Part shown: in pieces, positions 36,619 to 39,664 of the stretch | How positions within the stretch are numbered: the first letter of the stretch is position 1 | Layout of the letters: every line of letters begins with the position of its first letter | The notes under the pieces: model-generated | Told to the model about the DNA's origin: nothing | Seen by the model: the letters and a program-made list of their open reading frames with translations, nothing else | Database searches by the model: none | Made by a program: the position numbers and the translations under genes | Origin: Prosthecobacter sp. | GTDB lineage: Bacteria; Verrucomicrobiota; Verrucomicrobiia; Verrucomicrobiales; Verrucomicrobiaceae | Direction: 5' to 3' | Assembly (NCBI RefSeq): GCF_014879935.1 | Contig: NZ_JACSRD010000198.1 | Span: 1 to 64,000 of the forward strand | Length of the DNA stretch: 64,000 bases

Positions 36619-37821
36619 TCACGGTTTCCCGGCAGCTTTCCAAAGTTCCGCTTTGAGACTGACGTTATAAACACTGCCAGACGGGCTGCTCAGGGTGAAT
36701 TCCGCCGATTCGCCCGAGGCTATTTCCACAGCGTTTAGGGCGCTGATGTGCTCGTTTTGTGGATCCCCGCTTTTCTCCTTCAAGGTGCCCGAGATGGATA
36801 GCCCTGTGCTTTCCTTCCCTTCGGTCTGCTTTCTCACGTGGGATGCCACGAGGGTGAGTTCGAACAACACGCCCCGTCCGTCGGCGGGCGAGAGGCCCCA
36901 GGCGATTTTGGTCGGTTCTCCGAGCAAGGTGTACAACGTCGGCCGGCTGATGACACGCGCTTCCCCGCCGCGTCCGGCCGACATGTCGGAAATCACGCCA
37001 GAGATGCAAACCTGACCGGGGCGTTGATCCATGGCCGTGAGTTCTTGGAGCGCCGCTTCAAAGGCCTGACTGGTTGGCAACAGGCGAATCGAGTTGGTGG
37101 CTGCGTCCGTGGAAACCAGCGTGCTGGCGAATTCTGGATGCGCCTTGAGCAGGGTGGAGCCGGCCTGCTCCGCCGCGATGTACTTCAGCGTCACGGACTT
37201 GAGGTCCGTCATTTTGACAGCGTCTTGAGCAAGGTCAGCGACGGGCCTGCTTCGTTTCGCTGCCTCCCCCACTCCAGGCCGGTGTTCGCGGATGAACTCG
37301 GAGGGCGCCCAGTAGTTCTTTGTGCTCTTTTCATACTTTGAAGACTCCACGCCCATGCCGGGGGTCTTGCGCAGCTCAAAGTGCAGGTGTGAGCGATACA
37401 TGCCGTTGTTGTTTCCCAGCGTGCCGATCTTCTGCCCGCGCCGGACGCGTGCGCCGGCCTGCACGAAGCGCTGCTGGAGGTGATGATAGGACGATTCGCA
37501 GACCTGGAGCCTCCCCCTCGGATCCCAGTAGTTGTGCCGCATGATGATCACATGGCCATGGCCGCCGCCGGTGTTTTCAGAGAAGACCACCAATCCATGC
37601 GCGATGGCGTGCACTGGAGCGCCTAGGTCGCTGTCCGCCTCGCCGTCGCCATTCCAATCCTCGCCCGCGTGAGGCGCGTCTTTGCCAAACGCCTGACGCA
37701 TGAGGTGGAAGCCTGCTCCGTCCGGCGGTCCAACCGGGAAATCGAAGCCGTCCGCCACATCCGTCGGGTAGGCCGTCTCGTATGAAGCAAATCCCTGCTT
37801 CTCTTTCATCGCCTGCGACAT
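36619..37821 (-). CDS. M23-family metallopeptidase without visible signal peptide
   Basis: 400 residues. The N-terminal third is a LytM/M23 domain: H51 and D55 in H-A-G-E-D-W, then S-H-L-H-F-E-L-R with H145 and H147, the Zn ligands and catalytic His of lysostaphin-type endopeptidases. A G-D-G-E-A-D-S-D-L loop follows the first ligands. The remaining 230 residues are beta-rich and unrecognised. No signal peptide or membrane segment is seen, which is unusual for a peptidoglycan enzyme, and the start is fixed because the kinase stop lies 10 nt upstream. It belongs to the same run as the kinase and sigma factor genes, so it may be regulated by them or be a kinase substrate. Confidence 0.85.
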   Translation of the reverse strand: MSQAMKEKQGFASYETAYPTDVADGFDFPVGPPDGAGFHLMRQAFGKDAPHAGEDWNGDGEADSDLGAPVHAIAHGLVVFSENTGGGHGHVIIMRHNYWDPRGRLQVCESSYHHLQQRFVQAGARVRRGQKIGTLGNNNGMYRSHLHFELRKTPGMGVESSKYEKSTKNYWAPSEFIREHRPGVGEAAKRSRPVADLAQDAVKMTDLKSVTLKYIAAEQAGSTLLKAHPEFASTLVSTDAATNSIRLLPTSQAFEAALQELTAMDQRPGQVCISGVISDMSAGRGGEARVISRPTLYTLLGEPTKIAWGLSPADGRGVLFELTLVASHVRKQTEGKESTGLSISGTLKEKSGDPQNEHISALNAVEIASGESAEFTLSSPSGSVYNVSLKAELWKAAGKP

Positions 37822-37831
37822 CTGGCGGTAG

Positions 37832-38818
37832 CTAAAAAAAGCTCTGGGTGCTGCTCAGGGGCTTGTTTTCAGGGATGGCCGCTTCCACCTGTGTGCGAAA
37901 CTCCGCCGCCGTGGCAAAACGCAGCTCGGGTGTCTTTTCGAGGGCACGGAGAACGATTTCGTCGATGCGGATGTCCACTTGGACGCGTTTCGACGGCGCT
38001 TCGAGTTTGTCCTTCGGTCGCTCTCCAGTGAGCATCTCGTAAAGAACGACGCCGAGGCTGTAAATGTCCGCGCGGTGGTCGGCGTGGCCGTTTTGCTGCT
38101 CGGGGGCGGCGTAGGCGGGGGTACCGAGCGGAAACGTAGCCCGACTTTCCAAAGTCGGGTCACTGGGGCTGGGTTGAACGAACTCGGAAGTTCGTTCTAC
38201 GATCTTCGCGATGCCGAAGTCGGCGATCTTCACGACGCCGTTTTTGTCGATGAGGAGGTTCTCAGGTTTGATGTCGCGGTGGACGATGCCGTGGTCGTGG
38301 GCGCATTGCAGCGCATCACACACCGGCGGCACGATGCTGAGGGCTTCTTTGGGCGTGAGGCGCTTCGATTGGAGAAGTTGGCGGAGATTCACGCCGTCCA
38401 CAAACTCCATGAGCAAATAGTAGAAGCCGCTGGCCTGACCGAAGTCGAACACGCTGACGATGTGCGGATGATTCAGCGCGGCGAGGGCCTGCGCCTCTTT
38501 TTCAAAGCGGGCGGCGAACTGCGGATCATCCGCACGCTCGGGCGCGAGCAGTTTGAGCGCGACGAGGCGGTTCAGACTCTTTTGACGTGCTTTATATACC
38601 ACGCCCATGCCGCCGCGGCCGAGGCATTCGAGGATTTCGAGCTGCGGGAAGTGCGGTGCGAGTTCCTCCGGCGTCAGCGGGGGCAAAGAGGCGTTCGTCT
38701 CGCCAGCTTGAGTCGGTTGCACGATCTGGGCCATCAGGCAGCGAGGACACAAACCTGACGTGGCATCCGGCATGTTGGCACCGCACTGTGGGCATGGAAT
38801 GACTTGGGAAGCGTTCAT
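37832..38818 (-). CDS. Ser/Thr protein kinase with zinc ribbon and repeat-derived activation-loop insert
   Basis: 328 residues. An N-terminal zinc ribbon (Cys9, Cys12, Cys24, Cys27) precedes a Hanks-type kinase domain (about 60-320): G-R-G-G-M-G glycine loop, Lys89, H-R-D-I-K-P-E-N (180-187), D-F-G (200-202) and A-P-E (238-240). Residues 207-228, between D-F-G and G-T-P-A-Y, are encoded by a palindromic repeat (nt 38136-38200) and have low-complexity sequence. There is no membrane segment, so it is cytoplasmic. The ECF sigma gene ends 42 nt upstream and an M23 gene starts 10 nt downstream. ECF-kinase pairs are known in planctomycetes and verrucomicrobia; the kinase probably tunes the sigma factor. 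Confidence 0.92.
   Translation of the reverse strand: MNASQVIPCPQCGANMPDATSGLCPRCLMAQIVQPTQAGETNASLPPLTPEELAPHFPQLEILECLGRGGMGVVYKARQKSLNRLVALKLLAPERADDPQFAARFEKEAQALAALNHPHIVSVFDFGQASGFYYLLMEFVDGVNLRQLLQSKRLTPKEALSIVPPVCDALQCAHDHGIVHRDIKPENLLIDKNGVVKIADFGIAKIVERTSEFVQPSPSDPTLESRATFPLGTPAYAAPEQQNGHADHRADIYSLGVVLYEMLTGERPKDKLEAPSKRVQVDIRIDEIVLRALEKTPELRFATAAEFRTQVEAAIPENKPLSSTQSFF
38136..38200. repeat. Two-hairpin palindromic element inside the kinase gene
   Basis: CCCGACTTT/AAAGTCGGG (38140-38148 with 38151-38159, 2-nt loop) and GAACGAACT/AGTTCGTTC (38176-38184 with 38189-38197, 4-nt loop), both perfect 9-bp stems, joined by 16 nt and flanked by GTAG and CTAC. It lies in frame in the activation segment. 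The structure matches small extragenic palindromic repeats rather than coding constraint. Confidence 0.8.
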
Positions 38819-38860: not shown

Positions 38861-39589
38861 TCACCGGCTGAGGGCGGCGAAAAGACTTTCCAGCTCCTGC
38901 TGCACCATCGCCGGATCATCCAAGGTGCTGGCGATCTCCGCCTTCACACACTCTCGCAGCCGTTTCTTCAAACGGTGAACGGCCATGCGGAAAGCTTCGA
39001 TGTTCAGGCCGCATTCCGCCGCCAGAGCGGCCTGGCCACCGTGAACGCCGTCGCCCGTCAGCAACGGGCAGGCTGCACGGAAGAAGGATTCGCGGCCTTC
39101 CTCGACGCATTCGAGCCGCAGAGCGTCCAGGCCGCGTGCCAGCACAGTAACCGCCCATTGTCGGTCGAATTCGGCATCGGGGGAGAGTTGGCGCATGTCC
39201 GCCAGTTGAGCCGCTTCTTCGTTTTCCAAAGAAACGTCCTCCTTGCCGCCTCCTCGTTTCAATCGGGCCGCCGATTCGCGATGTCGGGACAGAAAATGTT
39301 TCACCGCTCCGAGCAGATAGGCACGAAACCGGCCCCGGTCGCGTTGAGCACCACGAATTGAGCCTCCAGCAAGCATTTCGGCAAAGAAGCTATGGCTCAT
39401 CTCCTGCGCAGCGTCGGCGTCACGCAGTTCACAGCGCAGATAAGCCAGCAGGGGTTCGTAGTAGGCGTCGCACAGGTCGGCGAGCGCACTGCGGCCCTCG
39501 TCAGAGTCTGACTGGGCTGCACAAACGGAGGTCCAGCGCGTGGTGTGAAACGTGCCGGTGCGGGGCGGGGGAGCAGGTGCCAAAGTCAT
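38861..39589 (-). CDS. ECF-type RNA polymerase sigma factor
   Basis: 242 residues from the ATG at 39589; an upstream in-frame ATG at 39637 is less likely because T-F-H-T-T-R-W-T-S-V is the usual N-terminus of this subgroup. Region 2 runs about 35-105, with A-L-A-D-L-C-D-A-Y-Y-E-P-L-L-A-Y and the A-A-Q-E-M-S-H-S-F-F core-binding segment. Region 4 (about 165-230) has a helix-turn-helix around A-L-A-A-E-C-G-L-N-I-E-A-F-R-M-A-V-H-R. The D-A-A-Q-E segment and F-H-T-T-R-W start resemble the ECF sigma factors linked to Ser/Thr kinases in the PVC group, as here. No anti-sigma gene is adjacent. Confidence 0.88.
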   Translation of the reverse strand: MTLAPAPPPRTGTFHTTRWTSVCAAQSDSDEGRSALADLCDAYYEPLLAYLRCELRDADAAQEMSHSFFAEMLAGGSIRGAQRDRGRFRAYLLGAVKHFLSRHRESAARLKRGGGKEDVSLENEEAAQLADMRQLSPDAEFDRQWAVTVLARGLDALRLECVEEGRESFFRAACPLLTGDGVHGGQAALAAECGLNIEAFRMAVHRLKKRLRECVKAEIASTLDDPAMVQQELESLFAALSR

Positions 39590-39664
39590 GTCCAACGGGC
39601 ACAGCGTGCCACATTTGCCTGACGTTTTGGAAGCCAAACCTCACGGGCTGATTTCCCCACACCC

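Follow-up and report, generated by a model that had tools for sequence, protein, structure and literature searches.

A kinase gene with a palindrome doublet between its DFG and APE motifs

The window analyzed in this study, a stretch of 64,000 nucleotides from Prosthecobacter sp., encodes a Hanks-type Ser/Thr protein kinase that adjoins a sigma-factor-like ORF and an M23 peptidase ORF (Table 1). The kinase consists of an N-terminal CxxC...CxxC stretch followed by the kinase domain, and it contains all of the hallmarks of Hanks-type Ser/Thr kinases (Lys, Glu, HRD, DFG, and APE). These residues (K89, E108, H180-R181-D182, D200-F201-G202, and A238-P239-E240) are invariant in a 43-sequence alignment; judged by its catalytic motifs, which the first-pass annotation had described as undamaged on both sides of the insert, this is predicted to be an intact Ser/Thr kinase. 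In NCBIfam, it is matched best by the Stk1/PknB PASTA kinase model (residues 61-320), with a score below the cut-off of that model (287 versus 450 bits).

The sigma-factor-like ORF upstream has no Pfam match, and its TIGR02989 match lies far under the model cut-off of 124.55 bits. A similar ORF, recognized by eye, adjoins a kinase paralogue on contig C154 (L002:2237-3091), so that at least two of the duplicated kinases have such a neighbor. On the downstream side, the kinase and peptidase ORFs seem to derive from a single ancestral gene: the orthologue of genome G028 (L010) has one frame of 748 amino acids that takes in the kinase, a hydrophobic stretch, and, identified by eye, an M23-like stretch, whereas in the window (36619-38818) the hydrophobic stretch is missing and the frame is split. 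Pfam analysis of the first 642 amino acids of the L010 stretch, which stop short of the M23-like end, returned kinase models only.

Between the codons for DFG and APE lies a 65-nt element that begins with GTAG, ends with CTAC, and contains two hairpins with perfect 9-bp arms. It is in frame and encodes V207-T228 of the 328-residue kinase, exactly as the first-pass annotation had read it. With GTAG at one end and a 9-bp stem on each side, in inverted arrangement, the element has the ends of a GTAG-type REP, and we identify it as a GTAG-type REP doublet with its two units in inverted order. Unit 2 matches a degenerate pattern exactly on the plus strand (C148:38136-38157). No other hairpin pair with arms of at least 8 bp lying within 40 bp of each other is present in the window, and ten order-1 Markov shuffles of the window yielded no such pair nine times and one pair once. 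At gathering thresholds, Rfam detected no family in the window or in loci L009, L002, and L144.

Table 1. Features of the kinase locus, with positions given in window coordinates
Feature	Position	Strand	Basis
M23 peptidase ORF, directly downstream of the kinase	36619..37821	minus	Pfam Peptidase_M23, E 1.7e-17
Hanks-type Ser/Thr protein kinase ORF, 328 aa	37832..38818	minus	Pfam Pkinase, E 2.5e-51, residues 61-276
APE motif codons, residues 238-240	38099..38107	minus	sequence; 43-sequence alignment
In-frame REP doublet in the activation loop, codons 207-228	38135..38200 (element itself 38136-38200)	minus	sequence, hairpin scan, family-A comparison
GTAG	38136-38139		sequence
REP unit 2 of the coding strand: hairpin (arms 9, loop 2) and CTAC	38136..38159	minus	hairpin 38140-38159
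16-nt spacer between the hairpins	38160..38175	minus	poorly conserved among carriers, length equal
REP unit 1 of the coding strand: GTAG and hairpin (arms 9, loop 4)	38176..38200	minus	hairpin 38176-38197
CTAC	38197-38200		sequence
DFG motif codons, residues 200-202	38213..38221	minus	sequence; 43-sequence alignment
Sigma-factor-like ORF, upstream of the kinase	38861..39637	minus	NCBIfam TIGR02989, E 4.3e-5, 23.5 bits

The element is dispersed in the genome and lies in frame within several genes

Allowing at most three mismatches, we found 21 matches to the unit of this element (GTAGAACGAACTTCCAAGTTCGTT; family A) at 15 sites of the 7.7-Mb genome, while a reversed-pattern control in the same genome gave none. 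REP-rich genomes typically carry hundreds of copies, and the family-A units are thus fewer. The proposal that a dispersed palindromic element was inserted into the kinase gene is well supported by these copies elsewhere in the genome. At seven of the 15 sites, a count that is independent of the loci clipped by contig ends (L162, L183, L208, L216, L228, and L236), the element is in frame inside a gene according to a codon-usage score computed for both flanks. The genes concerned encode two kinases (the one in the window and that on C154), a molybdopterin oxidoreductase, a glycosyltransferase, a haem-binding/ThuA protein, and two PSD1/DUF1553 proteins. Pfam matches span or abut the insert in the genes for the oxidoreductase, the glycosyltransferase, and the PSD1/DUF1553 proteins; the glycosyltransferase insert is located at the joint of two Pfam domains and that of the haem-binding/ThuA gene between the haem-binding and ThuA matches. 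An eighth site, a single unit on C187, is within an open frame, yet did not reach the in-frame score.

REPs are usually, although not by definition, mostly extragenic. In 400 kb of the same genome, consisting of contigs that were picked for their kinase relatives, repeats playing no part in the choice, six hairpin pairs end in GTAG/CTAC or in variants of it such as GTGG/CCAC, and long ORFs contain four of the six.

Several individual loci deserve mention. Four GTAG/GTGG-type hairpin doublets are clustered at G000:C217, about 79727-82483 (L143:19727-19793 and L144:924-2483); three of them lie in one ORF of 1631 amino acids encoding a PVC-type haem-binding CxxCH protein, and the fourth is in a minus-strand frame just before this ORF. 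At L050, L053, L245, and L257, REP doublets are in frame inside the PSD1/DUF1553 domain (Pfam), with one and the same YR motif immediately preceding three of the four, and on these sequences the domain appears to be a second recurrent site for REP doublets. A doublet at G000:C107:3907-3967 (L056), the GTAA of which ends an open frame of 500 amino acids, is perhaps a disrupting insertion.

The genome has 27 places matching PF01797, candidates for a RAYT (TnpA-REP), at an E value of 0.001 or better, and no RAYT cognate to family A was found near the ten of these that were fetched as loci. At G000:C31:136879-137513 (L060), a PF01797 transposase gene is bracketed by inverted hairpins (GTTG-CCCGGCCTTTCAAGGCCGGG) in a REPtron-like arrangement; the stem of these hairpins differs from that of family A.

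At least four palindrome families occupy the same activation loop

Relatives of the kinase are present in all 56 genomes searched, the genome of the window included, and at a stricter E value of 1e-110 in 25 of 48 genomes of the genus. The activation loop could be parsed in 65 of 71 loci, the exceptions being L020, L025, L079, L087, L090, and L108. From the genome_contigs collection, 80 of 374 places were kept and 69 were parsed, many being identical to loci already in the set. Nine other kinases carry family A at the same site as the window kinase and with the same loop length; family-A carriers include, besides the window, C154, L088, L260, L261, and L286. Family B occupies the site in L011, L014, and L074, and in decayed form in L016 and L078; family C in L010 and L070, and in decaying form in L071 and L017; and family D in L013, L072, L073, L027, L089, and L298. 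The four families differ in both stem and hairpin loop, with family C having other end letters as well (GTGA/TCAC), and copies of every family exist outside these kinases. Counting kinase sites, matches to families A, B, C, and D were found in 17, 7, 7, and 25, respectively, of 39 genomes of the genus. Thus, in this kinase subfamily of Verrucomicrobiota, the same activation loop has been hit by at least four palindrome families and is a recurrent landing site rather than the scene of a single event.

Further loop palindromes fit this pattern, among them type E in L015 and those in L295, L309, L326, L342, and L350. In G015, type E was detected at the kinase site only, while five other genomes have it at scattered places with one or two mismatches; the L309-type palindrome was found at the kinase site only in its own genome, G069. 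Outside the kinases, genes for FecR-family proteins (Pfam FecR) in four genomes contain a type-C element that is read in frame and precedes a hydrophobic stretch (L190, L192, L194, and L196 in G031, G009, G028, and G058).

After removal of duplicates, 30 of 103 loops contain a hairpin of at least 7 bp and 18 contain two or more, compared to 4.2% and 0.1%, respectively, in codon shuffles of the same loops. The concentration in the loop is also evident within the genes, with 48 hairpins in 8,109 nt of loop (5.92 per kb) and 40 in the remaining 94,818 nt (0.42 per kb). None of the 15 kinases with an LTQ-type loop has a hairpin. Chance palindromes in a GC-rich coding segment are therefore rejected for families A-D on the basis of the shuffles and of the copies elsewhere in the genomes. 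Although most of the named records are metagenome-assembled genomes, so that an assembly artefact might be considered, types C and E also occur in a genome of six contigs (G015), and together with the window and codon shuffles and the dispersed copies this leaves chance or artefact with a negligible probability.

In two of the loop sets, loci were required to have one frame across the loop. In the set that was free of this requirement, the loci lacking a clean in-frame loop are L087, L090, which has a run of N, and a few in which the search pattern missed APE. Eleven loci initially left unparsed, which were excluded from the count of 103, are all in frame when read singly, and one more of them (L336) has a hairpin; in L294 and L325, the loop resembles a decayed type C, and a residue of DFG or next to it is altered. 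The L087 loop has stops and runs into the end of a group II intron on the opposite strand (G024:C19, about 2118-2213; Rfam RF00029, 54.1 bits), 44 nt beyond which the contig stops. From this case, the activation loop may attract hairpin-seeking elements.

Insert turnover apparently outpaces the divergence of the kinase genes

We asked how the insert types are distributed on a codon tree of the kinases built without the loop. Among the 20 carriers in this tree, which took in 34 of 36 chosen rows, 12 changes of insert type are needed, and the mean for shuffled types is 12.0; given the many open forks, this lack of signal has limited power. An earlier protein tree of 47 rows likewise has many open forks and mixed insert types. 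In one clade with a support of 100/100, the window and L260 have family A and L010 has family C, while L074 (family B) groups with L075 and L262, both of which have loops of 19 amino acids without a hairpin. As insert type carries no signal on the kinase tree, inserts appear to turn over faster than the genes diverge.

These data also bear on the possibility of a single ancient insertion, from which all types would have arisen by descent as the stems diverged through compensatory change. It is true that family-A carriers from several records share the insertion site and a loop length of 84 nt, and that four type-C loops align without gaps. However, the stems and hairpin loops of families A-D are different, every family has dispersed copies of its own, and the types do not track the gene tree. 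We therefore reject a single inherited insertion for types A-D, and regard this account as very unlikely overall.

Some relatives lack a hairpin and have loops of 16-22 residues, so that the loop is not the same in all orthologues. The median length is 28 amino acids in loops with a hairpin and 23 in those without one. Loops of 22 residues or fewer make up 36 of the 73 hairpin-free loops and none of the 30 with hairpins, whereas 21 of the latter and 30 of the former have 24-31 residues. Since hairpin-containing loops mostly fall in this range rather than at the native length plus 22, simple insertion alone is insufficient; a net gain of less than one doublet implies that older loop sequence was lost or that whole loops were exchanged. 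Where a long loop has no hairpin, it may represent a decayed insert or be naturally long.

In G009, two kinases of different clades agree at only 0.58 of their four-fold sites, yet 77 of 78 nt are shared between their loops, which fits an exchange between paralogues. A genome-specific homogenization of loops was also considered and discarded, as there is no clear excess of shared types among carrier pairs of the same genome (3 of 14) over pairs from different genomes (33 of 176).

Family-A stems are better conserved than their spacers

For ten family-A loops of exactly 84 nt (the decayed L293, with 87 nt, was left out), we compared stems with the surrounding sequence. The stems pair in 93.2% of cells, compared to 82.7% in shuffles, and 20 cells have changed on both sides, compared to 7.2; none of 500 shuffles reached either value, and controls in which the stems were slid gave far lower pairing. 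At four-fold sites, identity reaches 0.858 within the arms (194 of 226 over 45 pooled pairs), against an average of 0.539 elsewhere. Mean identity is 0.784 in the arms and 0.453 in the spacers, which are equal in length. These pairwise counts are not independent of each other, and the shuffles ignore relatedness.

Either these hairpins are kept at the DNA or RNA level, or their stems are young or have been renewed from other copies. A role of the hairpin in DNA or RNA, or its repair as a palindrome through template switching or re-supply from other REP copies, would explain the high pairing, the two-sided changes, and the conserved four-fold sites of the arms. However, further pair types show no excess in the stems (66 of 500 shuffles were as high), the stems have decayed in several carriers (L016, L017, L071, and L078), and recent or repeated insertion of elements with fixed stems and free spacers would give the same picture, in addition to the statistical dependence of the counts. 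We consider such maintenance or repair possible, if somewhat unlikely.

Probable tolerance of inserts versus a proposed selected switch

In an AlphaFold2 model of the kinase, the mean pLDDT is 87.5 overall and drops to 62, 57, and 51 in the blocks of residues 201-210, 211-220, and 221-230. The activation loop, a hypervariable segment, is thus modelled with low confidence in an otherwise well-predicted kinase.

The reading that we favor, with a probability of roughly 0.7, is that a REP doublet was inserted in frame and that the loop has been colonized by at least four REP-like families with a turnover faster than gene divergence. Two inverted GTAG-type REP units would have entered the activation loop, which would since have been renewed through fresh insertions, the loss of older loop sequence, and exchange between gene copies. 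The likely reason is that the segment is disordered and tolerant of changes in length and sequence: these genomes may scatter REP doublets into genes, of which only those that are in frame and located in loops would survive. Mobilization may be due to a RAYT (TnpA-REP) acting on single-stranded DNA, loop swapping to recombination, and the persistence of the inserts to tolerance rather than to a selected function. The conservation of family-A stems above that of neutral sites is not predicted by pure tolerance unless the stems are young or re-supplied.

By contrast, the first-pass annotation had viewed the insert as domesticated into a phospho-switch, in which it supplies new phosphoacceptors and its frame may have been selected, other readings being expected to lack polarity. 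The position of the insert is indeed exact, and its Ser/Thr residues include Thr210 and Ser211, so that the claim of at least two candidate phosphoacceptors is true of the letters; other insert types and hairpin-free loops have such residues too, however. A Ser/Thr four residues before GT(P) is found in 73 of 103 kinases of the subfamily, and in family A, CTAC contributes two bases to its codon. Yet this residue is equally common with (20 of 30) and without (53 of 73) a hairpin, and was therefore not introduced as a feature by the insert. All ten family-A kinase loops that were compared use one frame, a uniformity for which common descent can account. Of the three frames of the element, one is closed by TAG; the second of the two open ones is used by other genes in that genome, where it encodes RRTNFQVRS or RRTSFQARS, and is polar too; hence the argument for frame selection fails. 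Moreover, different palindromes replace one another in this hypervariable loop without signal on the tree, and REP doublets are also present in unrelated enzymes. Domestication as a phospho-switch is unsupported by these comparisons, and we consider it improbable.

A broader version of the idea seems to us only slightly less doubtful, namely that the loop is an exchangeable cassette fed by mobile palindromes. Each REP doublet would contribute a new polar peptide with Ser/Thr residues, and turnover among the duplicated kinases, of which at least two adjoin a sigma-factor-like gene, might diversify their activation or separate paralogous pathways. If so, a mobile repeat would supply regulatory variation at the switch of a protein.

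Intragenic REPs have hitherto been viewed as scattered and probably neutral. In the present kinases, different palindrome families have repeatedly hit one short segment, located where the activity of kinases in general is controlled. The kinases with empty loops, old inserts, and fresh inserts form a natural series in which the effect of mobile DNA on a signaling switch can be measured. The finding is also relevant to the question of why coding DNA retains palindromes as their spacers drift.

Relation to known palindromic elements and kinases

PknB-like Ser/Thr kinases have the Pkinase domain in common with the window kinase. The latter differs in that its loop lacks the LTQ-type motif found in 15 other kinases compared, and in that its G028 orthologue runs on into an M23-like stretch. 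The term activation loop is absent from the accessible part of a paper on planctomycetal Ser/Thr kinases (PMC11032199).

The first-pass annotation had compared the insert to Rickettsia palindromic elements (RPE), which are likewise in-frame palindromes in genes. The window element has no CGTC-type end, which marks RPE-4 and RPE-6 as members of the CGTC class according to the available text of PMC3733652; it has GTAG/CTAC ends and a protein kinase as host. The GTAG-type REP dimers of Opitutus terrae described there are a closer match. REPINs, introduced as REP doublets that are likely mobile units (PMC3116915, in the part accessible), resemble the window element in being inverted doublets with a spacer less conserved than the REPs. 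However, they are described in extragenic space, whereas the window doublet lies within a gene and, although its two units are in inverted order, their stems differ. Cleavage by TnpA-REP and the role of GTAG in it are treated in the accessible portion of PMC8266576.

No palindrome insertion into an activation loop is described among the matches listed, which comprise open-access papers exclusive of supplements such as the intragenic REP list of PMC3733652. The available main text of PMC3733652 mentions a kinase once, in a reference on the excision of a repeat insertion from the guanylate kinase, a nucleotide kinase, of Rickettsia conorii. As far as that text extends, GTAG REPs inside ORFs, often dimers of 20-30 amino acids, are most numerous in the verrucomicrobium O. 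terrae, and two Xanthomonas species carry different REPs at roughly one position in recB. REP doublets lying in frame are therefore already known from Verrucomicrobia, and the elements reported here are like them GTAG-ended short stem-loops in inverted, in-frame pairs; what is new, relative to the accessible part of that work, is the repeated capture of the activation loop of a single kinase by at least four families, and their turnover at this site.
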